This document shows positions 45,932 through 60,992 of a DNA stretch of 64,000 nt, piece by piece. The stretch's first letter is position 1; every line of letters begins with the position of its first letter. Both the position numbers and the translations under genes were made by a program. The notes beneath the pieces were generated by a model. The model was given only the letters and a program-made list of their open reading frames with translations, made no database searches and was not told the origin of the DNA. Origin of the DNA: Pseudomonas rhizosphaerae (GTDB lineage: Bacteria; Pseudomonadota; Gammaproteobacteria; Pseudomonadales; Pseudomonadaceae); NCBI RefSeq assembly GCF_000761155.1, contig NZ_CP009533.1, positions 4,016,001 through 4,080,000 on the forward strand, given 5' to 3'.

Positions 45932-47037
45932 GAGTGCTCCTTGCCGCGCGACGGCTGAGTCAGCGTGGCACCGCGCGGGCGACGGACCATGACCGTATCT
46001 ATGCGATCGCTGATCAGCCGTGCCGACGCGTCCCAGCTGAACCGTGCCACGTTCTGCAGGCCCAGGGTCCGCAGGTGCTGGCGGATGGTCAGGCTGTTCA
46101 AGGCCAGGGCCATGGCCCGGCTGATGTGCTCGATATCCAGCGGATCGAAGTACAGCGCACTGGACTGCAGCACCTCGGGGATCGAGGCGGCATTGGCGGC
46201 CAGTACCGGGCAGCCACAGGCCTGCGCTTCGAGCGGCGGAATGCCGAAACCTTCATACAGCGAAGGAAACACGAAGGCCGCCGCGCCCTGGTATTGCTCG
46301 ATCAACTGAGCGTCGGTCAGGCGTCCGAGAAAGCGCACCCGTGGATCGCTGTTGGCCAGGGCTTCCAGGTTCGGATCGGAGAACACCGCGCCACCGCCGC
46401 CGACGATGCGCAACTCCACCTGCTCGAAACCCTTGAGCTGCAGGAACGCCTGGATCATGCGGCTGAAGTTCTTGTGCGCGCTGGGCGAGGACACTGCCAA
46501 CAGATAGCGTGGACCGGCCTGCAGCGGTTCACCGGGCTGAAACTCTTCACCCACGGCGTTGGGCACCACCAGGATCTTCTGCGCCGGAAAGTCGTAGAAC
46601 TCGCCGATCTCGCGTTTGGAAAACTGGCTGACGGTGATCAGCGTCTTCAAACGCTTGAGCAGCAGTGGCGTCATCAGGCGATAGGCCGTGCGGAACTGCC
46701 AGGTGTAGCTCTGCGGATGACGCACGTAGGTGATGTCGTGGTGCGTGGCGATCTGGTTGCCATAGAACAGCGGCGCGGTGGCGCACAGCGACAACAGCAA
46801 GGGGTTGCCTTGGCTGCGCAGGTAGCGCGGCAGGTCCAGTTGTTCCCACAGGTGGCCAGTCCGAGTGCCCACGACCTGAGCATCCAGCAGCCGAGCAGTT
46901 TCGTGCATGCGCACACCCGGCGAGGTGACGAACACCAGGTCGTCACGCTGACGCTTCAGGGCCAGGCAGGTCTGCTCGGCGAACCGTTGCACCCCGCGTA
47001 GCTCCTGGGTCAGAAAACGTGCATTGATGACAATCAT
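45928..47037 (-). CDS. GT4 glycosyltransferase
   Basis: This encodes 369 residues. The start IVINARFLTQELRGVQRFAE is typical of the mannosyltransferase-like group. The linker THHDITYVRHPQSYTWQFR and ITVSQFSKREIGEFY occur before the donor half. The donor half has YLLAVSSPSAHKNFSRMIQA, LRIVGGGGAVF and YEGFGIPPLEAQACGCPV with the E(x7)E donor site. Its gene follows the hydrolase after a 117-base gap, the largest within the operon, which holds a small 6-bp hairpin at 47129-47144. It is assigned to repeat-unit assembly. Confidence 0.88.
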   Translation of the reverse strand: MIVINARFLTQELRGVQRFAEQTCLALKRQRDDLVFVTSPGVRMHETARLLDAQVVGTRTGHLWEQLDLPRYLRSQGNPLLLSLCATAPLFYGNQIATHHDITYVRHPQSYTWQFRTAYRLMTPLLLKRLKTLITVSQFSKREIGEFYDFPAQKILVVPNAVGEEFQPGEPLQAGPRYLLAVSSPSAHKNFSRMIQAFLQLKGFEQVELRIVGGGGAVFSDPNLEALANSDPRVRFLGRLTDAQLIEQYQGAAAFVFPSLYEGFGIPPLEAQACGCPVLAANAASIPEVLQSSALYFDPLDIEHISRAMALALNSLTIRQHLRTLGLQNVARFSWDASARLISDRIDTVMVRRPRGATLTQPSRGKEHS

Positions 47038-47154: not shown

Positions 47155-48468
47155 CTACTGGGTGAACAACCAATTGGCCTTGCCCAGGCTGATGATCTTG
47201 GGGAACTCGGAGGCGGTGACCACCGTGGTGCAGTAGTGCTCGCCGCAATCCCAGGGGTTTTCGCTTTCGCGCATGCCCACGCCGGCCTGGCGCGTGTCGA
47301 TCAGACGCGCGCCGCCCTTGAGCAGCGCGCTGGATTCGATCCTGACCTGCCGCGACTGACCCACGGCCCAGATCACCAGCACCTGCTCGTCGCCCTTGGC
47401 GAAACGCAGTTGGTACAAGGTGTCGCTGATCACGCTGTGCTTGGCGTCATAGCGGTACTGCGACAGGTACGGCGCAATCGCCTTGAGCGTGGTGTACGCC
47501 GGCTTGGGGTTCAGATCGTTGTCGAGCAGGCCGAAGTTGTGCTCGCGCTCCTTGGGGTCGCGACCGTCGTTGAGCAGGTCGTACCACCACATGCCCTGGA
47601 TGGCTGGATGAATACGGGCCAGGAAAAACCCTCGCGCCAGGTACGCCGCCTGCGTGGTCTCGCTGACCCCACAAGGCTCATCGGCGCTGGGCCAGCTCAT
47701 TTCGGTCAGGTACAACGGCACCGGGCGCTCGGCCAGGGCGTCGAGCCGGGTGGAAATATCGTTCAGCCACTTGATCCAGTTCTCCGGGGTGTTGCCTGCA
47801 TGGTCCTTGCGGCAATGCACATAGGGGTGCAGCGACAAGCCATCCAGATCGTCCATCACACCGGCCTCTACCAGTCGGTCGGCGAAGCCTTCCTGCAAGC
47901 CCTGGGTGGTCACCGAACCGGCCACCAGGCGCACGTTCGGGTCGTTGCGGCGTAGCAGTTCACTGGTCTCCTTGATCAGCGTGGCGTAGTCCTGGCTGAA
48001 GGCGTCGCTGGTCGGGTCCTCCAGGTCCCATTCGTTCCAGATCTCGTAGAAGTCCACCTGGCCGCGCAGGCGCCGGCTGATGAAGTTCACATAGTTGGCG
48101 AAGGCATCGCGCACGAACGGGCTGCGCGGCTTGGCATCTTTGTCATACCACTGGTTGCCGTAGCCCAGGATGAGCATGTTGCCGATCTGCCGTTCGCGCA
48201 GGGCTTGCAGATAACGCTGCCAAGCCACCGGGAAGTTCAGGCGCTTGGGCTCCAGCTCCACCGTGGACCAGAACAGGTCATCGCGTGCCGAGGTGATACC
48301 GGCTTCTTTCATGAGCAGGGTCGGCCGCGCCACCGGCGCGCTCGAATGGAGCAAATGGGTACCGACCCCGACGATGAAATTGTCGGCGGCCTTGGCGTGG
48401 CCGTGGGTGAACAGCCCCAGCAGTAGCCAAACCAAACGTTGCAGCAATCTGGGCATAAAAAGGTTCAC
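47155..48468 (-). CDS. Secreted clan GH-A glycoside hydrolase (PslG-like role)
   Basis: This encodes 437 residues starting at a GTG (48468) that overlaps the polymerase stop as GTGA. A signal peptide (LLQRLVWLLLGLFTHGHAKA, cleavage after A27) sends it to the periplasm. The TIM barrel carries the acid/base Glu146 in YEIWNEWD and the nucleophile Glu256 in YLTEMSWPS, both in clan GH-A context. A beta-rich C-terminal part follows (GDEQVLVIWAVGQSRQVRIE). Length and setting recall PslG of the P. aeruginosa Psl cluster, an endo-hydrolase that trims the polymer. I infer a role in chain-length control or release. Substrate unknown. Confidence 0.85.
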   Translation of the reverse strand: MNLFMPRLLQRLVWLLLGLFTHGHAKAADNFIVGVGTHLLHSSAPVARPTLLMKEAGITSARDDLFWSTVELEPKRLNFPVAWQRYLQALRERQIGNMLILGYGNQWYDKDAKPRSPFVRDAFANYVNFISRRLRGQVDFYEIWNEWDLEDPTSDAFSQDYATLIKETSELLRRNDPNVRLVAGSVTTQGLQEGFADRLVEAGVMDDLDGLSLHPYVHCRKDHAGNTPENWIKWLNDISTRLDALAERPVPLYLTEMSWPSADEPCGVSETTQAAYLARGFFLARIHPAIQGMWWYDLLNDGRDPKEREHNFGLLDNDLNPKPAYTTLKAIAPYLSQYRYDAKHSVISDTLYQLRFAKGDEQVLVIWAVGQSRQVRIESSALLKGGARLIDTRQAGVGMRESENPWDCGEHYCTTVVTASEFPKIISLGKANWLFTQ

Positions 48469-49805
48469 GTCAGTTGAAGGCCATCGGGGTAATCATCACG
48501 GTTGCTGCGGCGTCGCTCGGTAATCAGCCAGTGCACGGGCATGGCCTTGCGGCGCAGGGCATGGGCGATGGCCATGCCCAGGAAAATCCCGCAGACCGGC
48601 ACTTCCAGCACGTCGGTCGTCCAGCCCACCACCACCACGCACAGGGCCGTGCTCAACAGCCCGCGACTCATCCAGCTGTTCTTGCTGCGCAGGGTCATCA
48701 GCAGCGGCAGCAGCAGCGCATACAGCGCCGGTCCCATGACGCCGAAACTGGCCCACAGGTACATGAACAGGCTGTCGGCGACAGCGGGGTACTTGACGTT
48801 GTCCACCGGGAACATGTTCACCGCACTGCCGACCATGCCAAGGCCGCCGCCGGTCCAGCTCCAGCCACGGCGTGACACTTCGTCGGCCAGGCGCGGCCAG
48901 GTGTTGATCATGCGGTCGTACAGCGACACCAGGCTGCCTTCGGCACCGCTGGCGGCCAGGCTCGGGTCCAGCGGTGTCCACAGACCCACCAGCGGCAGCA
49001 GGGCACCCATGCCCACCAGTACGACGAAAGCGACCCGGCACAGCAGGCGCTGGTTGTAGAAAGGCATCACCAGCAACACGGCGACGAGCGCCACGGCGGT
49101 GGACTTGTTGGTGGTCAGCAGGATGGTCGCGAACGCCACCCCCAACAGGGCCAGCAGCAGCACCTTGGAGCGGGTGAAGGCGCACAGGTACAGGGTGAAG
49201 ATCGCCGTCAGGGTGGCGGCCGTGGTCGACATCCGCGCAAAGCCTGCAGGGCGGTCGATGCCGTCGGCGGCCCAGGTCATGTTACCGGTCAGCTCCTGGT
49301 CGCCCAGGTTGTAGCTGTAGCCTTTCCACGGCACTGAAAACAGGCTGTCGGCGTACACGCCCACGATGGTCGCCAGCAGGCACAGGCCAACCGCCCAGCC
49401 CAGCAACTTGCGGCGCTGCTCCAAGTGTTCGCCGCACACCAGGCCGAACAGCAGCGGGATGTAGCCGAACAGGGCGAACAGCGGGTTGGCCAGGGCCGCA
49501 CCGTGCAGCGCGCCCAACCCGGCCGACAGGACCATGCCCAGCAGCAGGATCCAGAACAGGCGATGGGTCTTGAGCGTGGTCAATTCCAACGCGAACAGCA
49601 CCACGCACAGCACCTTGGGCAGGTACAGCAGGGCCGAAATGCCGGCCTGGTCGAAGTAATAGCGCAACGCGCCGGAGAACGTCTCGACCAGCAGCAGGGC
49701 GATCGCGGTCCAGACCACCAGCGTCGACTTGTTCACTGCAAGTCGCGCCACGGGTGCCGGTGCCTCAAAGCGACTGAGTGACAGGGCTGATTTCATGATG
49801 GACAT
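48465..49805 (-). CDS. wzy: O-antigen ligase/polymerase (Wzy-type)
   Basis: This encodes about 446 residues from the ATG at 49805; ATG at 49796 is an equal alternative. Ten to twelve hydrophobic helices are visible, such as ALLYLPKVLCVVLFALEL and LLLALLGVAFATILLTTNKS. A large periplasmic loop lies near residues 300-360 (SLYDRMINTWPRLADEVSRR, GWSWTGGGLGMVG), as in Wzy_C proteins. It would polymerise lipid-linked repeat units in the periplasm. The start overlaps the preceding glycosyltransferase by about 41 bases. Confidence 0.82.
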   Translation of the reverse strand: MSIMKSALSLSRFEAPAPVARLAVNKSTLVVWTAIALLLVETFSGALRYYFDQAGISALLYLPKVLCVVLFALELTTLKTHRLFWILLLGMVLSAGLGALHGAALANPLFALFGYIPLLFGLVCGEHLEQRRKLLGWAVGLCLLATIVGVYADSLFSVPWKGYSYNLGDQELTGNMTWAADGIDRPAGFARMSTTAATLTAIFTLYLCAFTRSKVLLLALLGVAFATILLTTNKSTAVALVAVLLVMPFYNQRLLCRVAFVVLVGMGALLPLVGLWTPLDPSLAASGAEGSLVSLYDRMINTWPRLADEVSRRGWSWTGGGLGMVGSAVNMFPVDNVKYPAVADSLFMYLWASFGVMGPALYALLLPLLMTLRSKNSWMSRGLLSTALCVVVVGWTTDVLEVPVCGIFLGMAIAHALRRKAMPVHWLITERRRSNRDDYPDGLQLT

Positions 49806-51003
49806 TTCTTCTTTGCAAAACATCGAGGAACAGCTGTTGGTAACTGTCGAGCATCCGTTCCTGGTCGAGCAGGTGCTCGACGCTGTCACGCGCCTGGGCC
49901 GCCAGGCGTTCGCGCAGTTCGGGGTCGCGGTACAGCTGCAGCATCGCCAGGCCCAGCGAGCGCGGCTCGTCGGGGTTGCACAGCAGCCCGTTGATGCCGT
50001 CCTGGATGATCTCCGGCAGGCCGCCACGGGCACTGGCGATCACCGGCACCGAGTGGGCGCAGGCTTCCACTGCCACCAGGCCGAACGGCTCGTTCCAGAT
50101 CGACGGCACGATGGCCACGTCGATCTGCCGATAGAAGCTTTCAGGCGACTGGTAGCCGACGAAGTGGATGTTTTCGCCGCTGGCCTCAAGCTTCAGCACC
50201 TGCTCGTAGTCCAGCTGCCCGCGCCCGGCGATCTGCAAGGTGGCGTTGAACGGCAATTTCTTGAACTGATCGATCAGCCAGCGCAAGCCCTTGGGCTCGG
50301 ACAAGGTGCCCAGGTAACCGAAGCGCAACGGTTCGCCTTGGGCCATGCGGGTGAAACGCGACGGTGCATGGTCGATCTTCGGGCTGGCGTTGTAGATCAC
50401 CTGCTGCGAAGCGTTGCGGAAGAAGCGGGCGTCGGTGAGCTTGCCCAGCAGGTGCTGGCTGACCCCCACCACCGCGTCGACCTGGGCCGAGCGTTCGGCA
50501 TGGCCCTGGCGGAAGTGCTTGCACAGGGTGCAGGGCGTCTTGCAGGCCGTGTTCTTCTTGAACATGTTGCTGCTCGGGCACATCAGGTACATGTCGTGCA
50601 GCACCTGCACCAGTGGCAGGCCGGATGCGGAGATCTCGTCCCACGCCGACACCGACCAGCCACTGAGGTTGTGGCACACCACCAGGTCGACCTTCTCGGC
50701 CGCCAGCACTTCGCGCAGGTAGGTGCGCATGCCCATGTTGTACTTGTCGCGCAGATGCCAGCCCAGCCGGGCCAACGCGCCGGGGCGCTGTTCGCTGAAG
50801 TGCCAGTAGGTGTTGAGCAGCCCGGCGCGGTAGACCTTCACGCCTTTCACGAATTCGTGCTTGAGGCCCGCATCGGGGCCGGTGCTCAGCACGCAGACTT
50901 CGTGGCCACGCTGATGCATGCCCTCGACCGTGCGTTGCAGAACGATTTCAGCACCGCCGCCGACATGCGGCGAGTACAGGCTGCTTAGGAACAGTATCTT
51001 CAT
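49765..51003 (-). CDS. GT4 glycosyltransferase
   Basis: This encodes 412 residues. The GT-B N-terminus is MKILFLSSLYSPHVGGGAEI with the GGAE acceptor motif. A cysteine-rich insertion (CPSSNMFKKNTACKTPCTLC) with four Cys could bind a metal; such inserts occur in some GT4 enzymes. The donor half has RFGYLGTLSEPKGLRWLIDQ and EPFGLVAVEACAHSVPVIAS, with Glu residues seven apart. It overlaps the GT2 gene by four bases. Cytoplasmic assembly of the repeat unit is inferred. Confidence 0.87.
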   Translation of the reverse strand: MKILFLSSLYSPHVGGGAEIVLQRTVEGMHQRGHEVCVLSTGPDAGLKHEFVKGVKVYRAGLLNTYWHFSEQRPGALARLGWHLRDKYNMGMRTYLREVLAAEKVDLVVCHNLSGWSVSAWDEISASGLPLVQVLHDMYLMCPSSNMFKKNTACKTPCTLCKHFRQGHAERSAQVDAVVGVSQHLLGKLTDARFFRNASQQVIYNASPKIDHAPSRFTRMAQGEPLRFGYLGTLSEPKGLRWLIDQFKKLPFNATLQIAGRGQLDYEQVLKLEASGENIHFVGYQSPESFYRQIDVAIVPSIWNEPFGLVAVEACAHSVPVIASARGGLPEIIQDGINGLLCNPDEPRSLGLAMLQLYRDPELRERLAAQARDSVEHLLDQERMLDSYQQLFLDVLQRRNVHHEISPVTQSL

Positions 51004-52004
51004 AGTGGGTACGATTCATGAATGCCCAGACGACCCGATTCCCCGTCACGCATGGCTTGTTCGAGCAAGCCCAGGCGTCGGTCCGAACCGCTCCTTTTTG
51101 CGAAATAGCGCAGCAACAGCAGAAACACCGAGCGGTTGAGCCGATACAGCAGTGTCGAGCCGGCCCACACGTGCTTGTCGAACCAGGCCTGGTTGCGCGC
51201 GGTGTAGTAGGCGCGCAGGTCCGAGTTGCCGAGCAGGAAGCTCTCGAAAATATTGTTGGTGCGCGCCTTGGCGTTCCACGACTCTTCCAGGTCGTCGAGC
51301 AACGCCTCGGTGACCAGGAAGATCTGCCCGCCGCTGGCGGTGATGCGCCGGGTGTACTCGGTGTCGTCGGCATACAGCAGCAGGTCTTCGAGCGGCAGGC
51401 CGATGCGCTGGAACACGCTGCGGTGCGCGAGCAGGCCGCCGTAGGTGGTGAACGGCAGCTGCAACAGGGACTTGCCGGCGGGCTTGCGCCCAGCAGGTCT
51501 GCCCCAGGGCGTGCGCCGCCAGACCTTGTAGGGCAACTGGGCAATGTGGAAGCCGAAGCAGCTGGATCGCAGCTGGATCGCGTAGCGATGCGGCACGCCG
51601 GCGGCGATGTCGGCCTGGTGGTTGGGGCGAAAACCCATCACCGCCGCCTTGTCCACGCCCACTAGGCGCGCGCACTCGTCCAGCCGCTGATGCAAAGTCT
51701 CGACCGCGCCCTGGGTAGGGGCGTTGTCGTCGTCCATCAGCCAGAGGTATTCCGCGCCCTGTTGCAGTGCCGCTTCGATACCGACCTTGTAGCCATTGGC
51801 CGAACCGGTGTTGCTGGGCAGCTCGATCACGGTGATCTGGGTTGGCCATTGCGTGCGCAGCGAGTTCAGATCGGCGCGCGACGCGTTGCTCACCACGACC
51901 ACTCGTTCGATGTGCGCAGAGGCCAGCGAACGCTCGATCAGCGCTTCCAGGTAACACAAGCGATCGCCGTACGTCAGTGTCACCAGCGTGGTCTTGGCAT
52001 TCAT
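51000..52004 (-). CDS. GT2 glycosyltransferase (GlfT/rhamnosyltransferase-like)
   Basis: This encodes 334 residues. The GT-A fold has TLVTLTYGDRLCYLEALIER at the start, VVSNASRADLNSL and NTGSANGYKVGIEAALQQGA. The metal-binding motif is LWLMDDDNAP (DDD). The acceptor part has FTTYGGLLAHRSVFQRIGLP and LYADDTEYTRRI. It resembles galactofuranosyl/rhamnosyl-type GT2 enzymes, but the sugar cannot be fixed. It is transcribed after the RfaH-like gene. Confidence 0.87.
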   Translation of the reverse strand: MNAKTTLVTLTYGDRLCYLEALIERSLASAHIERVVVVSNASRADLNSLRTQWPTQITVIELPSNTGSANGYKVGIEAALQQGAEYLWLMDDDNAPTQGAVETLHQRLDECARLVGVDKAAVMGFRPNHQADIAAGVPHRYAIQLRSSCFGFHIAQLPYKVWRRTPWGRPAGRKPAGKSLLQLPFTTYGGLLAHRSVFQRIGLPLEDLLLYADDTEYTRRITASGGQIFLVTEALLDDLEESWNAKARTNNIFESFLLGNSDLRAYYTARNQAWFDKHVWAGSTLLYRLNRSVFLLLLRYFAKRSGSDRRLGLLEQAMRDGESGRLGIHESYPL

Positions 52005-52043: not shown

Positions 52044-52556
52044 TCAGCAGGCGTGCGCGGTAAGCCGCTGCAGGCTGCTGCGCGGCAGGCTGATTCGCTG
52101 TTCGCGTTGCAGCATGTTGAGCAGGATCACGGCACGTTCGTCGCCGTCTTCGCAGAGGAAAATGGCCTGCACTTCACTGTCGCCGGTGCGCACGCGCACG
52201 GCCTCGCCTTCGCTGAAGCGCACCGCGTTCGCGGCGCTTGCCTGGGTGCGCTGGCGAATGCTGGCGATCAGGCTGTCCGGCACCGGGCAAGGCATGCCGC
52301 CGAAGGCGACGATGCGGCACACGCCACGGGTCGAGCGGATCGGGTACCAGTTGTCGTTGCAGTCCAGGCGGATGAACAGGTAGCCGGGGAACAGGTCCTC
52401 GTCGGCTGCGCGGCGGCTGCGGGTCAGGGCAGGGGCTGCGCGCAACGGGCGAAAGCACTCGTATTGCTGACGCAGCAGATGTTCTTCGGCACGGGCTTCC
52501 TGCCGCGGTTTGGTCTGGATCAGGTACCAGTTGGCATTGCTGTCGAAGTCGTTCAT
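52044..52556 (-). CDS. rfaH: RfaH-like transcription antiterminator (NusG paralogue)
   Basis: This encodes 170 residues (E. coli RfaH has 162) from the ATG at 52556, overlapping the WbqC-like gene by four bases. The NGN domain is visible: NWYLIQTKPRQEARAEEHLL, DLFPGYLFIRLD and STRGVCRIVAFGG. The RfaH-type C-terminal region follows: SEGEAVRVRTGDSEVQAIF and EDGDERAVILLNMLQRE. RfaH binds ops DNA in a paused complex and suppresses termination in long surface-polysaccharide operons. An ops-like sequence lies in this operon's leader (60527-60537). The gene is therefore within the operon it would control. Confidence 0.9.
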   Translation of the reverse strand: MNDFDSNANWYLIQTKPRQEARAEEHLLRQQYECFRPLRAAPALTRSRRAADEDLFPGYLFIRLDCNDNWYPIRSTRGVCRIVAFGGMPCPVPDSLIASIRQRTQASAANAVRFSEGEAVRVRTGDSEVQAIFLCEDGDERAVILLNMLQREQRISLPRSSLQRLTAHAC

Positions 52557-53338
52557 GAGCGCATCTCGATGGCGTGGGCGGAAGGACTGGTGGCCACCCT
52601 GCGGGTGTCCTGTGCAGCGCTCGGCTTGAGCGTGCTGTAGCACGGCAGCCACTGGCGGATCCGTGATACCGGGTTGAACATCAGCACGTCGATGATCGAC
52701 AGGTTGGGTACGAACGGGTCCTTGAACTGCGTGTAGCAAAGCTCGTCCATGCGGTGGAAACGCAGCTCCAGGTCATGGCGGGCGAAGTACTCTTCGTCGT
52801 ACAGCGCCGTGCCGCCGATGGGGTTGAGGTAGCGCTGCGCATCGAAGTGGCGCGCCAGCTTCACCACGCGGTCCTGCTTGTCCTGCACCTGGCGCTCGTC
52901 CACCGGCAGGGTGGAGGCGACGTGGATTGGCGTGTCGATCTGCAGGTACTCGCAGACCTTGCGCAGCGAGTACTCCAGGTACAGCGCCAGGTTGCGCTCC
53001 GGGTAGCTGAGCAGCGGCTTGAGCAGCGCCAGCACGTCGTCGCGGTAAGGCGCGCGGGAATAGCTCATGGCGATGGTCCTGAGCAGCTTGTCCAGCACCT
53101 GCGGGGCGCTGTCGCTGAGCTCGCGTCGGTTGATCGCCAGGTCCGAACGGTCCTTCTTCATCGGCAGGGTGAACAATGCCGGAGCGCCGGAGCTGAGCAG
53201 CCTGTTGCGGTTGACCCAACCGGGGTGTACGTACTGCAGGTTGTCGCCGAGCACAAAGGCATCGGCGCCGGCGATCAGCTGGAAATAGCCGAAATAGGGA
53301 AACCAGTAAGGCTGCATCATGGCTACGGTTCTGGACAT
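52553..53338 (-). CDS. WbqC-like family protein
   Basis: This encodes 261 residues. The family signature is QPYWFPYFGYFQLI near residue 9, followed by AFVLGDNLQYVHPGWVNRNR. LFTLPMKKDRSDLAINRREL and YLNPIGGTALYDEEYF are also conserved-looking. WbqC proteins occur in O-antigen and exopolysaccharide clusters beside aminotransferase genes, possibly acylating or modifying sugar nucleotides. The biochemical role is not established. It ends where rfaH begins (four-base overlap). Confidence 0.85.
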   Translation of the reverse strand: MSRTVAMMQPYWFPYFGYFQLIAGADAFVLGDNLQYVHPGWVNRNRLLSSGAPALFTLPMKKDRSDLAINRRELSDSAPQVLDKLLRTIAMSYSRAPYRDDVLALLKPLLSYPERNLALYLEYSLRKVCEYLQIDTPIHVASTLPVDERQVQDKQDRVVKLARHFDAQRYLNPIGGTALYDEEYFARHDLELRFHRMDELCYTQFKDPFVPNLSIIDVLMFNPVSRIRQWLPCYSTLKPSAAQDTRRVATSPSAHAIEMRS

Positions 53339-53365
53339 CGGGAGACTCCTGCCTGGGTCAGGCGA

Positions 53366-55582
53366 TTACTTTTTGCTCGGCGAATAGTCGTAGCCGTAGG
53401 CAGCGCAGTCGTACTCGGCGGTGGACGCCTTGCGGATCACGCCGTTGAATATCGCGCCTTTCACCAGCACGCCGTTCTGCGCAAGACGACGCTTGCTGAC
53501 CTCGATTTCCTTGACCGAACTCTGGCCAAAACGGGCAACCAGCAGGGTGGTCCCGGCCTGGCGGCCAATCAGGCTGGCGTCGGTCACGGCGATCACCGGT
53601 GGGGTGTCGATGATCACCAGGTCGTAGTGCGGCGACAGCTCGCGCAGCAGCTTGCTGAAGTTGTCGTGCATCAACAGTTCGGAAGGGTTGGGCGCGGCAA
53701 AGCCACAGGCGATCAGGTGCAGGTTGTCCACTTCGGTGGCGTTGATCACTTCGGTGTTGCCCAGGCGCGCGGCCAGGGCATCGGACAGGCCATGCTTGGG
53801 CTGCAGGCCGAACGATCGGTGCAGGTAGCCCTTGCGCATGTCGCCGTCGATCAACAGCACGCGCTTGCCGGCCTGGGCAATGATCACCGCCAGGTTGGCG
53901 CTGACGAACGACTTGCCCACGCCCGGCATGGGGCTGGTGATCATCAGCACGTTGTTGCGCGCTTCCATCATCGCGAAGTGCAGGCTGGTGCGCAGGCTGC
54001 GCAGCGACTCGATGGCCAGCTCGCTCGGCGCAGCCACGCTGAGCAGGCGCGATTCGCGGTTGGTCACGCCCTTGCCACGTTTTTTCTGCAGGCGTTCCTG
54101 CTGGCGCGACAGCGGCAGCGAGGCGTACACCGGCATGCCCAGGTTCTCGATCACTTCCGGGTTTTCCACGCCGCGGTAGAACGCCTGGCGGATGAAGATG
54201 ATCGCCACGGCGACCAGCGTGCCCAGCAGCATCGCCACCAGGACGATGACGGCACGCATCGGCTTGACCGGCTCTTCGACGTTGCTGTCGGCCTTGTCGA
54301 TGATGCGCACGTTGCCGATGTTGCCGGCGCGGATGATGTCCTGCTCCTGGCTTTTGTTCAGTACCAGGGTGTAGGTCTGGGTGGTCACCTGCATGTCGCG
54401 GGTCAGGCGCAGCAGTTCCTGCTGGGTCTCGGGCAGGCCCTTGATCTGCGCTTGCAGGGAAGCCTTCTGCGTTTCGATCTGGCTGATCTGCTGGCTCAGC
54501 GCGGCCGAAGCGGGATGCTGGCGGGTGTACAAGCGATCCAGATCAGTGCGCTTGAGGCGCAGCTCGGAAAGCTGGGCGTCGTAGGCGACCATCTGGTCGA
54601 GCAGTGCCTTGGTCTCAAGGGTGATGTCCACCGACTTGGTGCGCATCTGGAAGGCGTGGAGCGCTTCTTCGGATTTCTCCAGTTCCTTGCGTACCACCGG
54701 CAGTTGCGAGCGCAGGAAGTCCAGGCGCTGGGCCGCTTCGGCCGAACTGCGCTCCACGTTCTGGCGCACGTACAGGCGGCTTACTTCATCCAGCACGCGG
54801 TTGGCCTGCACCGGGTCGGTGTCGTTGATGCTCAGGTAGACGATGCCCGAATCCTTGCCCGACTCGGCCACGCGCAGACGCTGCTGATAGTCCAGCGAGG
54901 TGTTCAGCAGGCGGTTCTTCACCAGGCGAAATTCGGTGCCGGGGCGAGCGGTCAGTTCGGCCAACTGCAGGGTGATGCCGTTGCCCTGGCTGACTTCGCC
55001 GACACGACCGCTGAGCAGTGGCGCGCCGTCGGCGTCGACCAGGCGATAGGTACCGTTCGGCCCGGCGATCAGGGTCAGACGCTCGCCCTGCAGGTTGGCC
55101 GGCACGTCCAGGTTGAACACCTCGATCTTCTCGCCGCCCCAGGCGAACGCATCCAGACCGAACAGTGGCGCGGCCAGTTTCTCGCTGCCGGTAGGGGTGA
55201 ACTCGCGGGCCATGTAGCGGCCGATCGCCGGGAAGTAGCGCGGCGTGGCCACTACATCCAGCTTGAGGTCGCTGACCACTTTGCCGAGCACGGTGCGCGA
55301 CTTGATCAGTTCGATCTCGGTCACCGCTTCCGATACCGAGGCTGGCTTGGTGTTGAGCTGCGGCGTGGCATCCAGGCCGACCTTCTTCGGCTCGATCTGG
55401 ATCATCGCGTTGGCCTGGTACACCGGCGTGGCGACCACGGCGTAGAAAGCCCCCAGCAGGGTGAACAGCACCACTACCACGGTAATCAGTTTCTTGTGGT
55501 CGAACAAGGTCCGTAGAATCGTCGCGAGATCGATCTGGGTGTCCTTGTAATACTCCAGGTTTGAACGGTTCATCGCGGTCAT
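53366..55582 (-). CDS. wzc: Polysaccharide co-polymerase / tyrosine autokinase (Wzc)
   Basis: This encodes 738 residues from the ATG at 55582, overlapping the phosphatase stop. The N-terminal Wzz domain starts DTQIDLATILRTLFDHKKL with a first membrane helix (VVVVLFTLLGAFYAVVAT). A long periplasmic coiled-coil part follows (residues about 60-440). The second helix is AVIVLVAMLLGTLVAVAIIF. The cytoplasmic BY-kinase has Walker A SPMPGVGKS near residue 548, Walker A' LLIDGDMRKG and Walker B LVIIDTPP. The C-terminus ends with a tyrosine cluster (EYDCAAYGYDYSPSKK) for autophosphorylation. It sets chain length and drives export with Wza. Confidence 0.94.
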   Translation of the reverse strand: MTAMNRSNLEYYKDTQIDLATILRTLFDHKKLITVVVVLFTLLGAFYAVVATPVYQANAMIQIEPKKVGLDATPQLNTKPASVSEAVTEIELIKSRTVLGKVVSDLKLDVVATPRYFPAIGRYMAREFTPTGSEKLAAPLFGLDAFAWGGEKIEVFNLDVPANLQGERLTLIAGPNGTYRLVDADGAPLLSGRVGEVSQGNGITLQLAELTARPGTEFRLVKNRLLNTSLDYQQRLRVAESGKDSGIVYLSINDTDPVQANRVLDEVSRLYVRQNVERSSAEAAQRLDFLRSQLPVVRKELEKSEEALHAFQMRTKSVDITLETKALLDQMVAYDAQLSELRLKRTDLDRLYTRQHPASAALSQQISQIETQKASLQAQIKGLPETQQELLRLTRDMQVTTQTYTLVLNKSQEQDIIRAGNIGNVRIIDKADSNVEEPVKPMRAVIVLVAMLLGTLVAVAIIFIRQAFYRGVENPEVIENLGMPVYASLPLSRQQERLQKKRGKGVTNRESRLLSVAAPSELAIESLRSLRTSLHFAMMEARNNVLMITSPMPGVGKSFVSANLAVIIAQAGKRVLLIDGDMRKGYLHRSFGLQPKHGLSDALAARLGNTEVINATEVDNLHLIACGFAAPNPSELLMHDNFSKLLRELSPHYDLVIIDTPPVIAVTDASLIGRQAGTTLLVARFGQSSVKEIEVSKRRLAQNGVLVKGAIFNGVIRKASTAEYDCAAYGYDYSPSKK

Positions 55583-56028
55583 CTTTGTCGATCCTCGGAA
55601 CTCAGGTAGGGCAACCAGCCTTCGATACACAGAGTCAATTCGGTGTAGGTACGTTGGAAGGCTGAAAGGGGGCGGCGATAGGGATCGTCGATTTCGAAGT
55701 CGTCGCGCCACTTGCCGATCAGAAACGTTTTGCCTCGCGTGTGCGGGGCCTTGTCGGTGATGCTGCGCAGCTGGCGCTGGTCCATGACCAGAATCAGATC
55801 TGCCCAGCGCACCCTCTCGTCGGTCAGCTGGCAGGCAGCGTGTGCCGGCCGTGCTATCTGGTTGTCGCTCAACACCTGCGCTGTGAGGGCATGCATGTCT
55901 TCGCCGACGCAGGCCTTCAGGCCCGCCGATTCGACCTGCAGGTGCGGCGCGTGGTGGCGCAACAGCGCCACTGCCATGGGGCTGCGGCAGATGTTGCCGA
56001 TGCAGATCACCAGAACCTTGTTGATCAT
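55579..56028 (-). CDS. wzb: Low-molecular-weight protein-tyrosine phosphatase (Wzb)
   Basis: This encodes 149 residues. The phosphatase loop is VICIGNICRSP, with the catalytic C9 and R15 (C-x5-R-S). The general acid Asp lies in DFEIDDPYRR. It dephosphorylates the Wzc tyrosine tail so that cycles of polymerisation and export can proceed. The stop codon overlaps the Wzc start, so the kinase and phosphatase are translated together. Confidence 0.94.
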   Translation of the reverse strand: MINKVLVICIGNICRSPMAVALLRHHAPHLQVESAGLKACVGEDMHALTAQVLSDNQIARPAHAACQLTDERVRWADLILVMDQRQLRSITDKAPHTRGKTFLIGKWRDDFEIDDPYRRPLSAFQRTYTELTLCIEGWLPYLSSEDRQR

Positions 56029-56035
56029 GTCGTCT

Positions 56036-56962
56036 TCAGCCCCTTGCCGCGGCAGGCGTCAGGCGCCGCAGCAGGTTGCGGCTGACGTTGCCCGACACAT
56101 GCAGCAAGGCCTTGAACTTCTGCACCGGCCTGATCGCTGCCACGCACATGCCGGACACCTGCACCAGGAAGTGCTCGTAGAGCACGCGGTCGCCCTGGCG
56201 GAAGTAGTAGTTGGCCAGGCACGCGTAGGTGTGCAGGGTCATCTGCAATTTGTTCTGGCCCGGGCGCTGGGAAAAGATGCCGCCCGGGTGCAGGCGGTAG
56301 CGCGCCGGAGCGATGTCGGCCAGGTACTTGCCCTTGCCGTGCGCACCGAGCATCGACCACCAGCACAGGTCCAGCACCGGCGCATGTTCCAGCTCGCGGG
56401 GCAGCTCGTGCAGCACGTTGCGAAAGCAGGTGGTGAGGGTCGAGATCGGCCGGGCCTTGAGCAGGTCCATGGCGGTGGCGTCGGCCTGGTACTTGCCGGT
56501 CAGCTGAATGCCCCGATCACCCTCGCTGTCGAAGGCCATGGCGTCGTGGTAGGTCAGCACGTAGTCGCTGTTGGCCTCCAGGAACTGCACCTGCTTCTGC
56601 AGCTTGAGCGGGTCGATCCAGTAATCGTCGCCTTCGCAATAGGCGATGTACTTGCCGCGTGCTCGGTTGAACAGCGCCGGGAAGCACCAGCGGCCCAGTT
56701 GGTACTGGTTGTGCTGGTGGAACACCGGTTTGATGATGTTCGGGTACTGCGCAGCGTACTGCTCGATCACTGCCATGGTGCCGTCGCTGGAGGCGTCGTC
56801 GTTGATCAGGATCTCGAAGGCGAACGTGGTGCGTTGCGCCAGGAAGCTGTTCAACGTCTGCTCGATGTAGTCGACCTGGTTGTAGGCCGGGCAGGTGATC
56901 GACAGCAACGGTTCCTGCCCCTGGGGCCAGGCTTGCATGATCTGTTGTTCGGTCCGCTTCAT
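56036..56962 (-). CDS. GT2 glycosyltransferase
   Basis: This encodes 308 residues from the ATG at 56962, overlapping Wzx by four bases. The GT-A fold has LLSITCPAYNQVDYIEQTLN, FEILINDDASSDGTMAVIEQ and the metal motif YCEGDDYWIDPLK. The C-terminal half is helical (LHTYACLANYYFRQGDRVLY). It is similar to many exopolysaccharide and capsule GT2 enzymes. The donor sugar is not predictable from sequence. Confidence 0.87.
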   Translation of the reverse strand: MKRTEQQIMQAWPQGQEPLLSITCPAYNQVDYIEQTLNSFLAQRTTFAFEILINDDASSDGTMAVIEQYAAQYPNIIKPVFHQHNQYQLGRWCFPALFNRARGKYIAYCEGDDYWIDPLKLQKQVQFLEANSDYVLTYHDAMAFDSEGDRGIQLTGKYQADATAMDLLKARPISTLTTCFRNVLHELPRELEHAPVLDLCWWSMLGAHGKGKYLADIAPARYRLHPGGIFSQRPGQNKLQMTLHTYACLANYYFRQGDRVLYEHFLVQVSGMCVAAIRPVQKFKALLHVSGNVSRNLLRRLTPAAARG

Positions 56963-58491
56963 CGTTCGGCGCTCGCTCTGCTCAACTTCAGGAAAACCCG
57001 CTGGGCCAGTGGTTTGTAGGTGGCCGCCACCAGGGCCAGCGTCAGCACGCCGCACAGGGCCAGGGCCGCGAAGATCACCAGGCGGTCGCTGGACCCGCCG
57101 GCAATGGCCTTGAACAGCGGATGGGTCAGCAGCACGCCGAGCACGGTGCTCAGGCTGATGCGCAGAATGTCGCGCAGCCAGGGCCGGTGCAGGCCAGGCG
57201 CCAGGCGCCGATGCACCACTTGCGGCCACAGCGCGAAAGACACCAGGCGCAGCGTGAACCAGGTCACGGCCGCGCCCAGGGCGCCCCAGCCGTACACCGC
57301 AATGATCATCGCCGGCACGCTGATTGCCGCCGAAATCACGCTGTACCAGATGTGCAGGCGCATTTCGCCGTAGGCGTATTGCAGGTGGTACTGGAACGCG
57401 CTGACGGCCAGGATGGCGCTGCCCAAGGCGTACCAGAACAGAATCGGTGCACCCCACTGGGCGGCCTGGGCGTCGCCGCTCCAGGCGAACAGCAAGGGCT
57501 CGGCGTAGAACGCGATGATCGCCGCCAGGGGGAACAGGAAGGTGCTGACGAAGCGGCTGGCACCCAGGTACAGGGCATGCATGTCGCCTTCCCGGCCTTC
57601 GGCGACCTGCACCGTCATGCGCGGCAGCAGCGTCTGCACCAGCGGGTTGATCATCATCATGATCCCAGTGGTCAGCAGTGCGACCAGCGAAAAGTAACCG
57701 TATTCGGCCAGCGGCAGTACCTTGGACAACAGCACCTTGTCCAGCTGGGTCAGGACGATCCACACCACGGCGGTCAGCGACACGCTGGCGGCGAACGGCA
57801 GGATCGGCTTGACCAGCGCCCAGTTGAACCCGCTCAGAGGGGTCGGTGCGGGCAGGTGACGGTAGGCCTTGGCGGCAAAGATCAAGGTCTCCACCAGCGC
57901 CACGAACAGTTGGAATTCGAAGAACACCTGAGCGTCCTGCGACACCCAGGTCACCAGCACCAGGCCGCCGAAGTAGCGCAGGGTGGCGATCACCACGTTG
58001 GCGTTGTTCAACCAGGCGTGCATCTCCAGGCCTTGCAGGCCGCTCTTGTACAAGGTGGCGAACAGGCGCAGGCCGATCATCACACCCATCAGGATCACGC
58101 AGTTGACGATGGTCTGCGGGTCCAGTGCCTGGGCTTGCAGCCAGTGCGTGGCCATCCAGTCGCTGGCCAGGTACACGGCCAGGGCGCACACCACTGCCAT
58201 GGGCAGGAACACCAGCTCGAAGGAGCGCATCAGCCAACCGCCGATGCGCTTGGCCGCCGCGCTGTCGCTGCTGCCCTGGTGATGGGCGATCTGGCGTACC
58301 AGCGACGGCGAGACACCGGCGTCGAGCAGCAGCAGCCACGCCTGCATCACGGCGTAGAAGCCGATCAAGCCATAGGCCTCGGCGCCCAGGTGGCTGAGGT
58401 AGAACGGCATGATCAAGATGCCGATCACCAGCGCATAGGCCTGGCCGAGGTAACTGAGGGCAGTGTTGTGGATGACCGAACGCTTGTTCAT
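56959..58491 (-). CDS. wzx: Polysaccharide flippase (Wzx)
   Basis: This encodes about 510 residues from ATG 58491; a GTG seven codons upstream (58512) is an alternative. It has about 12-14 hydrophobic helices, for example LSYLGQAYALVIGILIMPFY and LPLAEYGYFSLVALLTTGIM. Its start VIHNTALSYLGQ is the pattern of MOP-superfamily flippases. It moves undecaprenyl-linked repeat units across the inner membrane for Wzy. It stands right after the aminotransferase gene. Confidence 0.88.
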   Translation of the reverse strand: MNKRSVIHNTALSYLGQAYALVIGILIMPFYLSHLGAEAYGLIGFYAVMQAWLLLLDAGVSPSLVRQIAHHQGSSDSAAAKRIGGWLMRSFELVFLPMAVVCALAVYLASDWMATHWLQAQALDPQTIVNCVILMGVMIGLRLFATLYKSGLQGLEMHAWLNNANVVIATLRYFGGLVLVTWVSQDAQVFFEFQLFVALVETLIFAAKAYRHLPAPTPLSGFNWALVKPILPFAASVSLTAVVWIVLTQLDKVLLSKVLPLAEYGYFSLVALLTTGIMMMINPLVQTLLPRMTVQVAEGREGDMHALYLGASRFVSTFLFPLAAIIAFYAEPLLFAWSGDAQAAQWGAPILFWYALGSAILAVSAFQYHLQYAYGEMRLHIWYSVISAAISVPAMIIAVYGWGALGAAVTWFTLRLVSFALWPQVVHRRLAPGLHRPWLRDILRISLSTVLGVLLTHPLFKAIAGGSSDRLVIFAALALCGVLTLALVAATYKPLAQRVFLKLSRASAER

Positions 58492-58516
58492 CGACGGTTG
58501 CCCTGGTTGCACGCTT

Positions 58517-59632
58517 TCATACTGCAGTGGCCCATGAAACGGGTTGGGGATAACGCAGCTCGTGACCGCGCAAAAGAGTGTCGACGACTTGATCCTGAAC
58601 GGCGCGTGCCAGCCCTGGGTAGATGGGCAGGCAGAGCACGCGATCGCTCAGGCGTCGCGACTGGTACTGCACCGCTTGTGGCTGCAGGTACTCCAGGGTA
58701 TCGAGCGAGGGGTAAAAATAGCGTCGTGGCGTGATGCCCGCCGCCTGCAACGCCGTGCGCGTCTGCAGCACCTGGGTTTCGTTCTGCAAGGCCACCGGGA
58801 AGTAGCTGTAGTTGATCTGGCTGCCCTCGGCCTGGCGTTGCAGGTCGAAGTAGTTGCCCAGCCGCTGGGTGTAGTAGTGGCCCATCTCGGCACGGCGCTC
58901 GAGGATGTTGTCGATGTCGTCGAGTACGCTCAACCCCATGGCGGCACAGAATTCGTTGAGCTTGGCGTTGGTGCCCAGGCCTTCGATCTTGTCCACGTCG
59001 GTGATGCCGAAGTTGCACAGCTTGCGCACCCGGGCTGCCACCTCGTCGTCGTTGGTGACGATCGCGCCACCCTCGATGGTGTGGAACAGCTTGGTCGCAT
59101 GAAAGCTCAGGGTGCTGGCATCGCCCCAGTTGTACACGGACTGGCCGGCGTGCTTCACGGCAAAGGCGTGGGCGCCGTCGTACACCACCTTGAGGCGGTA
59201 CTGGCGGGCAATCGCTTCGATGCGTTCCACGGCGCAGGGGTTGCCGAACACGTGGGTAGCGACGATGGCGCTGGTGTCGGCCTGCAGGCTGCCCGGGATC
59301 TGCTCGGGGTCGAGGTTCCAGGTGTGCGGATCGATGTCGGCGAACACCGGGCGAATGCCTTCCCAGTGCAGCGAACTGCTGGTGGCGACGAAGCTGAACG
59401 GCGTGGTCACGGCGCTGCCGGAGAGACCCAGTGCGCGGTAGGCCACTTGCAGTGCCAGGGTGCCGTTATTGGTCAGGATCAGGTGGCGCACGCCCAGGTA
59501 ATCCTTGAGGCGTTCCTCCAGTTCGCAGCACAGCGGACCGTGGTTGGTCAGCCAGTGGGAGGCGTAGATACGGTCCACATAGGCCTTGAACTTGTCGATG
59601 TCGCCCAGATAGGCCTTGGTTACGTTGATCAT
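58517..59632 (-). CDS. Sugar aminotransferase (DegT/DnrJ/EryC1/StrS family)
   Basis: This encodes 371 residues. The PLP lysine lies in LSFHATKLFHTIEGGAIV, near residue 181, with the usual SFHxTK context. Other family motifs are LTNNGTLALQVAYRALGL, VVYDGAHAFAVKHAGQ and KLNEFCAAMGLSVL. The enzyme transfers an amino group from glutamate to a keto-sugar nucleotide, giving an amino-deoxy sugar for the polymer. The neighbouring WbqC-like and acyltransferase genes would fit a downstream N-acyl modification. The upstream dehydratase is not in this window. Confidence 0.9.
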   Translation of the reverse strand: MINVTKAYLGDIDKFKAYVDRIYASHWLTNHGPLCCELEERLKDYLGVRHLILTNNGTLALQVAYRALGLSGSAVTTPFSFVATSSSLHWEGIRPVFADIDPHTWNLDPEQIPGSLQADTSAIVATHVFGNPCAVERIEAIARQYRLKVVYDGAHAFAVKHAGQSVYNWGDASTLSFHATKLFHTIEGGAIVTNDDEVAARVRKLCNFGITDVDKIEGLGTNAKLNEFCAAMGLSVLDDIDNILERRAEMGHYYTQRLGNYFDLQRQAEGSQINYSYFPVALQNETQVLQTRTALQAAGITPRRYFYPSLDTLEYLQPQAVQYQSRRLSDRVLCLPIYPGLARAVQDQVVDTLLRGHELRYPQPVSWATAV

Positions 59633-59688
59633 TCGCTGCTCCCTGGCTGCTCGCCATTCCCCATGGTGTCCAACAAGTGGTGGTCCGC

Positions 59689-60459
59689 TCAGGACGCCTG
59701 ACGTTTGCTGCGTGCCACTGCGCGGCGGGCGCGGTGCTGGTTAAGCCGCAAGATCATCCGCGTCGTCAGGCTGCCAGCATGGGGGTCACCGTAGTGGAAC
59801 AGCGCAGTGGCGCGACGGTGGGCCGGATCGCACGGTTGGTTGGCATGCAGGGAGCGATAGCCCCAGAAGAAATACACATTGCCCGGCTTCATGCGCAGCA
59901 GCAGTGGCTTGAGCCAGCCGCGCTCGATGCACCAGCCCATCAGGCGACGGCACAACGGGTTCTGGTACACGACTTTCTCCACGGCGTTGAACAGCACGCT
60001 GCCACGCACGCGGCGCAGGTTGGGAAACAGCACCAGATCACCGCGATCCTTGCCCTGTTCGGGAATGAAGATCGGCACCAGCATGGTCAGCAGGGTCGCG
60101 TCGAAGTGAAACGCGTTGGATTCCTTCAAACCACTGTGGCCCTGCACGCAACGCAACACCGGGAACACCTGGTCGCTGGGAGCGGCATGGCCCTGGCCCT
60201 GCTCGTGCAGGCGCGCCAGGTGCTGGCGAAACTCGCTCGATACCGCGGTGGCCGCCAAGCGGCTGCCCACCAGCGGCGCATTGCCGTGATAGGCGAAGTA
60301 CTGATTGTTATGGCGCGCAGCCTGGTCATCCACATAAGCACGAAGTTCTTCAAGCACGTAGGGCGCCAAAGCGTTTTCCAATACGGCATAGCCCTGTTCA
60401 TTCATATCGGCCGCCAGGCGGCTCGATGTGTTTTCATCCAGGTTGAACAAATGTGGCAT
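59689..60459 (-). CDS. Phytanoyl-CoA dioxygenase (PhyH)-like protein
   Basis: This encodes 256 residues from the ATG at 60459, preceded by AAGGAGGG; the open frame runs further upstream without support. The Fe(II)/2-oxoglutarate pattern is suggested by SNAFHFDATLLTMLVPIF (H-x-D) and YFFWGYRSLHANQPCDP (distal His). The N-terminus has LNEQGYAVLENALAPYVLEE-like sequence, typical of PhyH folds. It is the first gene of the exopolysaccharide operon. A hydroxylation of a sugar or lipid precursor is possible; no substrate can be named. Confidence 0.72.
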   Translation of the reverse strand: MPHLFNLDENTSSRLAADMNEQGYAVLENALAPYVLEELRAYVDDQAARHNNQYFAYHGNAPLVGSRLAATAVSSEFRQHLARLHEQGQGHAAPSDQVFPVLRCVQGHSGLKESNAFHFDATLLTMLVPIFIPEQGKDRGDLVLFPNLRRVRGSVLFNAVEKVVYQNPLCRRLMGWCIERGWLKPLLLRMKPGNVYFFWGYRSLHANQPCDPAHRRATALFHYGDPHAGSLTTRMILRLNQHRARRAVARSKRQAS

Positions 60460-60526
60460 GAGGAAGAACCCTCCTTGGACACGCGATTGATTGAACGCCA
60501 TAACTAACGTTCTGTGTGTTTGGGCA

Positions 60527-60537
60527 AAGCTACCGCC
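60527..60537 (-). promoter_or_regulatory. ops-like element (RfaH recruitment site) in the operon leader
   Basis: The minus strand reads GGCGGTAGCTT, matching the ops core GGCGGTAG with the usual variable end. It is flanked by GGGC and GCCC (60522-60538), which can form the small hairpin that RfaH contacts in the non-template strand. It lies about 70 bases before the first start codon and about 190 bases after the putative promoter. An RfaH homologue is encoded eight genes downstream. Confidence 0.82.
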
Positions 60538-60992
60538 CGGTTCGTACTCGACGATCCCTTGAACTTGCAACTTCACTGGACAGAACAGACCACACACACC
60601 AGAGCACACAGCGCCGACCGGTAATCGAGGTCAGCGCTGGAGAGGCATACAGGGTAGTGAGTCGAGTTTGCGCGTCGCTCTTCGGCGGCGCTGCAACTGC
60701 TGTGTTGGCGGCAGATGGGTGATATATCGGCTTTGGCGGGTGGACTGTCAATTGCTTTCGTCAAAATTACTGCGGTCGTTCAAAATCACCTGTCGTAATT
60801 TCATAACTATATGATTTATATGGTGATTTATTTTTGGCGCTGGCATATTGCTGTCAGATTCGGGCTTTTATAGGTTTTCTTGACGTTGCCCCCTCGAACA
60901 GGCCGCAAACCCGCAGAATCACTGAGTTCAAGCAGTGTGCAAGTCGTCCGGATCACGAAAATTCGCACAGCCGCTGACTATTTTATGTCGTC
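60538..60992. other. Exopolysaccharide operon leader and upstream region, no gene
   Basis: The region between the ops-like element and the davA terminator contains the leader, the promoter (60721-60751) and an A+T-rich block at about 60795-60835 (catatagt- and atataaatc-type sequence). Such blocks are frequent targets of MvaT/H-NS-like proteins in pseudomonads. No open frame with a start and ribosome binding site was found. Confidence 0.5.
60721..60751 (-). promoter_or_regulatory. Putative sigma-70 promoter of the exopolysaccharide operon
   Basis: The minus strand carries a perfect -35 box TTGACA-type (TTGACA, complement of 60746-60751) and, after 17 bases, a weaker -10 box (GATATA, complement of 60723-60728; TATATC lies two bases further). 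Transcription would begin near 60715, giving a leader of about 255 bases before the first start codon. Confidence 0.55.

Follow-up and report, generated by a model that had tools for sequence, protein, structure and literature searches.

An rfaH gene embedded in a Pseudomonas exopolysaccharide operon, a conserved ops element in the operon's leader, and a probable positive autoregulatory loop

How does a specialised NusG paralogue that is encoded inside a long operon find that operon, and what follows if regulator and target share one transcript? The question is raised by a stretch of 64,000 nucleotides (nt) of Pseudomonas rhizosphaerae DNA (contig NZ_CP009533.1, positions 4,016,001 to 4,080,000; hereafter the window), in which a leader (60751-60460, minus strand) carrying an operon polarity suppressor (ops) element precedes a 15-gene exopolysaccharide operon with an embedded rfaH gene (52044..52556, minus strand). 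The sites, the protein, and their conservation and linkage are observed directly. The likely explanation, in our assessment, is that the embedded RfaH is recruited at the ops of its own leader, which would constitute positive autoregulation, and that it probably acts in trans as well. An earlier reading of this DNA (the original prediction) had counted rfaH as the eighth gene of 16; the open reading frame (ORF) map makes it the seventh of 15.

On profile and residue evidence, the gene 7 product (170 amino acids; protein P0001) is a true RfaH, in agreement with the original prediction of an RfaH-type protein at this position. It scores 169.4 bits against TIGR01955 (RfaH; cut-off 144.5) and falls below the cut-offs of the narrower RfaH model NF006534 (118, cut-off 124), the UpxY model NF033644 (53.2 bits, cut-off 100) and the LoaP model NF033641 (33.7 bits, cut-off 125). 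E. coli RfaH provides the top-ranked solved structures related to it, and since only NusG and this RfaH match PF02357 in the genome, it is the sole NusG paralogue there. The ops-reading residues of E. coli RfaH, K10, H20, R23, Q24, T72 and R73, are retained as K16, H26, R29, Q30, T76 and R77, whereas among the remaining loop contacts T68, N70 and A71 are changed, and the autoinhibition residues E48, I93 and F130 are present as E53, I97 and F133.

In the leader, the ops consensus GGCGGTAGNNT is matched exactly on the sense strand by GGCGGTAGCTT (60537-60527, minus strand), the only exact copy within the window and the predicted RfaH recruitment site. Exact match and RNA fold agree in placing this 11-mer, as first described, inside a GGGC...GCCC stem (60522..60538, minus strand; 60538-60535 paired with 60525-60522). 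Folding the leader, which had been proposed as a check, supports the RNA stem (-8.7 kcal/mol over 22 nt, z -2.14; 6 of 200 shuffled sequences fold as well). As DNA, folding of the 11-mer by itself is weak (-0.7 kcal/mol, matched by 20 of 200 shuffles). A further RNA hairpin, GGAUCGU-CGAGU-ACGAACC with one A-A mismatch (60539..60557, minus strand), has its foot 2 nt 5' of ops. This hairpin is present in the 43-nt minimum free energy fold and absent from the 102-nt one; it is not found with perfect stems, needing one mismatch, and alone is not better than shuffles (p 0.15). Farther upstream, a candidate promoter (60721..60751, minus strand) combines TTGACA (60751-60746), a spacing of 17 nt, and GATATA (60728-60723) or TATATC (60726-60721); a stricter consensus promoter scan of the window does not list this element near 60750, returning only a weaker site at 60857-60830. 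The leader was rejected as a member of the JUMPstart RNA family RF01707, scoring 14.1 bits (gathering threshold 35, E-value 9) with mostly the ops part aligned, and six relatives also score below the threshold. Gene 1 probably starts at ATG 60459, after AAGGAGGG (60476-60469, minus strand), rather than at 60501, which sets the ops-to-start distance at 67 nt.

Is this arrangement conserved? A search of 398 Pseudomonas genomes yielded, among the matches listed, 140 rfaH loci for analysis; about nine further listed rfaH-like places lie outside this set, which therefore does not hold all rfaH genes of the 398 genomes. At 44 loci, termed class A (L043-L085, taken in order of identity, together with L131, which joined the class only once its ops was known), rfaH lies inside a window-like operon with at least two same-strand operon genes upstream of it, a layout that none of the 96 other loci has, as checked afterwards. 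Exact leader ops elements occur in 41 of these 44 loci, 12 with one and 29 with two, the tandem sites being spaced 56-120 bp apart and most commonly about 98 bp. Like the window, its two nearest relatives carry one ops only, and L048 and L049 carry a decayed second ops (two mismatches) where L046 and L047 have a second site. The close relatives found with names are P. baltica and Pseudomonas sp. 286, whose RfaH is 95% identical to the window's; RfaHs named in P. syringae and P. viridiflava (P0057, P0091, P0113) are 61-65% identical, the level of class A2 proteins. The position of E. coli E48 is variable in 5 of 13 class A1 proteins.

The promoter-like element is shared as well, a TTGACA-N17-GATATA-like sequence being found at 42 of the 44 loci, and in 38 of 41 class A leaders the best-scoring promoter precedes the first ops by 172-266 bp. 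A block TTGACAG-N-GATATAT is deeply kept, and class A2 has in addition a conserved AT-rich stretch upstream (TTATCAAAAA..TTAACAG) that looks like an activator site. An A2 promoter candidate just upstream of the first ops, which scores best in L071 only, was set aside once the conserved element about 180 bp upstream had been found. At L045, a much shorter polysaccharide gene set lies between the same CN-hydrolase and pqqF neighbours, with promoter element, ops (-2464) and rfaH retained, as if regulator and leader stay and cargo changes.

When 42 class A leaders were chosen by the shared promoter-like element and not by ops, exact sense-strand ops elements were found in 41 of them and in none on the antisense strand; 998 permuted patterns matched on average 0.08 of the 42 leaders and at most 7, and never gave two sites in one leader. 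Genome-wide, exact GGCGGTAGNNT occurs 36 times in 4.685 Mb, compared with 44 times for the reversed pattern. This is a chance-level count, by which sequence alone proves nothing; position in the leader and conservation do, being beyond chance. Among 25 A2 relatives, the DNA 20-55 bp behind the ops sites is nearly random (identity 0.30-0.33). The suggested search for co-occurrence, made here across Pseudomonas genomes, bore out the pairing of leader ops with embedded rfaH, but its extended form was uninformative: the pattern GGCGGTAGCNTNGCC is present in 166 of 398 genomes, with the reversed control mostly commoner, and was discarded.

Does the regulator serve only its own operon, as a "self-contained" circuit would? 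We scored 31 of the 36 exact genome sites for codon bias, reading ORF maps for 15 and taking the other 16 as coding by codon bias. Five of those sites have a sense gene start within 300 nt, namely those before the window operon, manC, a glycosyltransferase, an acyltransferase and a LysR-type gene (the last two named by eye); a hand estimate based on the frequency of the site in this genome puts the chance expectation at about 0.002 ops per leader. The manC gene (TIGR01479, 531 bits, cut-off 373) is unlinked to the operon. Its leaders were compared for 9 of 13 class A1 genomes, 11 of 31 class A2 genomes and 15 genomes without an RfaH-level match, with no close manC found in the A1 genomes G161 and G343. 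Exact ops elements, with NN bases differing, precede manC in 5 of the 9 other class A1 leaders (G249, G043, G023, G336, G397), and in none of the 11 class A2 leaders, the 15 genomes without RfaH-level match or 3 manC paralogue leaders. The glycosyltransferase gene, elsewhere in the genome, is a gene 8 paralogue that shares 59% identity with the gene following rfaH in near relatives, and its ops is present in both near relatives with NN bases changed. Because ops sites that are kept in relatives also precede these two genes elsewhere in the genome, the circuit is not self-contained as originally described; the window RfaH probably has trans targets in manC, a gene for GDP-mannose supply, and in the glycosyltransferase paralogue. 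The acyltransferase (G000:C1:583091) was dropped as a target, its matches in two near relatives covering coding sequence only and not the site. In the L051 genome, an exact ops is absent from the operon leader and present in the unlinked manC leader (L232).

The remaining 96 loci fall into three other layouts. At 42 loci (class B), GGCGGTAGCGT is located 3' of rfaH; at 19 (class C) it belongs to a divergent operon, 2.5-5.2 kb upstream and on the opposite strand; and 35 (class D) have neither layout and no GGCGGTAGCGT in the stretch taken around rfaH, any GGCGGTAGNNT occurring at one locus only (class D is exemplified by L139 and L175). Of 34 class D proteins, 33 have N at the position of E. 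coli H20, and these RfaHs may recognise a different site or be purely trans-acting. In classes B and C (L086-L182), the ops consensus reads AATCCTGGGGCGGTAGCGTG. At seven class B loci (L087, L092, L102, L108, L111, L117, L120), wzb and wzc stand directly upstream of rfaH with ops behind, and these seven form the sister group of class A in the protein tree (100/98), which suggests a possible relocation of ops from the 3' side of rfaH to the operon head, or the reverse. The first genes after ops, for seven class B/C loci, include a phosphomannomutase, a sugar transferase, a nucleotidyltransferase, a UDP-sugar dehydrogenase, a UDP-GlcNAc 2-epimerase and a DUF6369 protein (Wzy_C just under cut-off); at the remaining locus a family-less gene is followed by a putative porin.

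Structures around ops recur across these loci. A 3-bp GGC/GCC closing stem is found at 11 of 12 single, 25 of 29 first and 28 of 29 second class A sites, as well as at 33 of 42 class B and 14 of 19 class C sites, random downstream DNA giving about a quarter. A hairpin ending at most 4 bases from the ops start (one mismatch, -3 kcal/mol or better) accompanies 11 of 13 single sites including the window, 27 of 29 first sites, 18 of 29 second sites and all six manC sites; control positions give a fraction of about 0.2, class B has it at 5 of 42 sites and class C at 1 of 19. The foot of this hairpin lies about 10-13 nt before the expected pause base, a spacing that would fit pause-hairpin geometry. 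Requiring perfect stems at -2 kcal/mol lowers the counts to 9 of 13 single and 5 of 6 manC sites, with none in the window, and leaves those of the first (27 of 29) and second (18 of 29) sites unchanged. The A2 first hairpin shows little covariation, most of its bases being constant, and the class A1 leader consensus fold gives almost nothing (-2.0, 9 sequences). Between promoter and first ops, A2 leaders show a CGGYGC...GCGCCG stem in which, judged by eye over 15 sequences, some pairs change. For JUMPstart elements, a conserved stem-loop has been described before (PMC2864571).

What would the embedded RfaH do? Transcription would start from the promoter near 60750 (minus strand), and RNA polymerase would pause at ops (60537-60527), perhaps aided by the RNA hairpin ending just upstream. 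Resident RfaH would then read the ops bases in the non-template strand, displace NusG, and take both polymerase and ribosome to the end of the 18-kb transcript; this RfaH probably engages the ops leaders of manC and the glycosyltransferase paralogue as well. As rfaH is gene 7 of the transcript, read-through would make more RfaH, closing a positive autoregulatory loop that would relieve polarity and would not by itself be a bistable switch. From sequence, then, we infer pausing, recruitment, read-through, autoregulation and trans action alike. The part of the original prediction that placed regulator and target on one transcript with positive feedback fits the conserved leader ops, the embedded rfaH and the kept key residues.

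Several observations weigh against this explanation. Position 12 of the E. coli ops 12-mer, G, is T here (60526); at the second ops sites of relatives the consensus there reads CGTG. Two loci with embedded rfaH, L051 and L079, have no exact leader ops (at L056 the contig ends too early), and class A is one clade in a tree of 114 thinned proteins (100/99), so the 44 loci represent conservation and not 44 independent origins. An exact ops is missing from four of the nine manC leaders of class A1, three having a one-mismatch site and G287 none; manC appears monocistronic from the sequence behind it, which is odd for an antiterminator target; and a hairpin adjoins none of the 3 glycosyltransferase ops sites. 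AlphaFold (AF2) gives the C-terminal domain as a beta-barrel and not in the helical autoinhibited form (mean pLDDT 77.6), such models showing one of two states. Finally, at 17 of 44 class A loci rfaH follows the upstream ORF only after a gap of 29-80 nt.

Those gaps leave room for an internal promoter, and with it for an account in which RfaH works at ops and rfaH sits in the operon by linkage only, inherited or transferred together, and is expressed mainly from that promoter, with no meaningful feedback. The linked, non-embedded layouts of classes B and C are compatible with such an account, but in the window rfaH overlaps gene 6, and it overlaps or adjoins the upstream ORF within 10 nt at 26 of 44 relatives; we regard linkage without feedback as unlikely. 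The modelled beta C-terminal domain, together with the tie of beta-type RfaHs to neighbouring operons reported in the accessible part of PMC13015549, would suit a monomorphic, constitutively active RfaH that is loaded co-translationally in cis, independently of ops, a mode proposed for cis-encoded RfaHs. Against it stand the ops-reading residues that are kept here and the ops sites at the unlinked manC, and a leader ops retained in 41 of 44 loci as its flanks drift would be purposeless without ops reading; we regard this form as very unlikely.

The original prediction also proposed a bistable on/off switch of polymer synthesis, and the anatomy does contain positive feedback. In a minimal steady-state model with 1560 parameter sets, one or two serial ops sites each give a concave response with a single steady state, bistability appearing in 0 of 1560 sets in either case. 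A cooperative response (h=2) is bistable in 106 of 1560 sets, but no source of the cooperativity needed is seen, and we consider a bistable switch highly improbable. A chance match of the 11-mer, for all its chance-level count across the genome, is ruled out for practical purposes by the permutation test (41 of 42 leaders versus a mean of 0.08) and by position, strand and doubling conserved across diverged leaders.

Within the positive autoregulation that we favour, the model assigns the second site a different use. At scarce RfaH, two sites give a 62.5-fold gain compared with 10-fold for one (b 0.01, A/K 1), which suggests that tandem ops serve RfaH loading when RfaH is rare. A broader possibility, put forward tentatively, is that Pseudomonas preserves a surviving intermediate between cis and trans action, with an embedded RfaH loaded at one or two hairpin-assisted leader ops pauses and capturing unlinked pathway genes (manC, the gene 8 paralogue) through gained ops elements; hairpin plus ops might then be the composite loading signal of the clade.

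The operon itself comprises, from the ORF map and profile searches, 15 same-strand genes running on the minus strand from 60501 or 60459 down to 42509, about 18 kb. Gene 1 (59689..60501) has no family found in the profile search and is followed by a DegT/DnrJ aminotransferase (gene 2, 58517..59632, PF01041), a GT2 glycosyltransferase domain protein (gene 3, 56036..58339, PF00535), a Wzb-like tyrosine phosphatase (gene 4, 55579..56028, PF01451), a Wzc-like tyrosine autokinase (gene 5, 53366..55711, PF02706 and PF13807) and a WbqC-like protein (gene 6, 52553..53338, PF08889), the stop of which overlaps the start of rfaH by 4 bp. Behind rfaH come a GT2 glycosyltransferase (gene 8, 51000..52004, PF00535), a GT4 glycosyltransferase (gene 9, 49765..51003, PF00534), a gene with no family found in the profile search (gene 10, 48465..50033), a glycosyl hydrolase family 39-like gene (gene 11, 47155..48468; PF01229, 26.5 bits, cut-off 26), a second GT4 glycosyltransferase (gene 12, 45928..47037, PF00534), an acyltransferase (gene 13, 44858..45931, PF01757), a third GT4 glycosyltransferase (gene 14, 43681..44925, PF00534) and a Wza-like export gene (gene 15, 42509..43591, PF02563 and PF22461).

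How does this compare with known systems? The window shares with the E. coli RfaH and ops/JUMPstart system the protein family, the ops bases, most ops-reading and autoinhibition residues, and polysaccharide targets; it differs in that rfaH is the seventh gene of its own target, in the two ops elements that relatives often have, and in a leader below the JUMPstart threshold. NusG paralogues within target operons have been described, namely TaA, UpxY and the Shewanella RfaHs, and rfaH loss and duplication in Pseudomonadaceae are reported (both from the accessible part of PMC7593976). Like UpxY of Bacteroides and TaA of Myxococcus, the window protein is a specialised NusG encoded within the long operon served, but it falls under the UpxY model cut-off, and a candidate recruitment site is visible here, whereas the accessible part of PMC7593976 calls recruitment unknown for those paralogues. 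Shewanella cluster CL7 likewise has RfaH within a putative exopolysaccharide operon, and the same part of that paper mentions no ops for it, a distinction drawn from the description only and not from a comparison of leaders. The monomorphic cis-acting RfaHs of Idiomarina and Pseudidiomarina resemble the present case in an rfaH beside or inside the operon and in an AF2 beta C-terminal domain, but they are reported to be ops-independent, whereas the present family conserves both ops and the residues that read it and has more sites in trans. As far as its accessible part goes, the 2026 preprint in question (PMC13015549) contrasts trans-acting, ops-dependent with cis-acting, ops-independent RfaHs, and it notes that 17 of 212 metamorphic RfaHs also adjoin an operon. 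In the open literature, most subscription papers lying outside the search, we found no account of ops in Pseudomonas leaders or of tandem ops. Embedded NusG paralogues are thus already known; an embedded RfaH with a leader ops, often doubled, and with likely trans targets is new.

Collectively, the class A family fits neither side of the contrast between cis- and trans-acting RfaHs well, being cis-encoded and ops-bearing with likely trans targets. It bears on how operon-embedded NusG paralogues find their target. Its natural leaders with single, double and missing ops form a ready variant series, and through the family the evolution of the RfaH regulon becomes open to testing by simple reporters.
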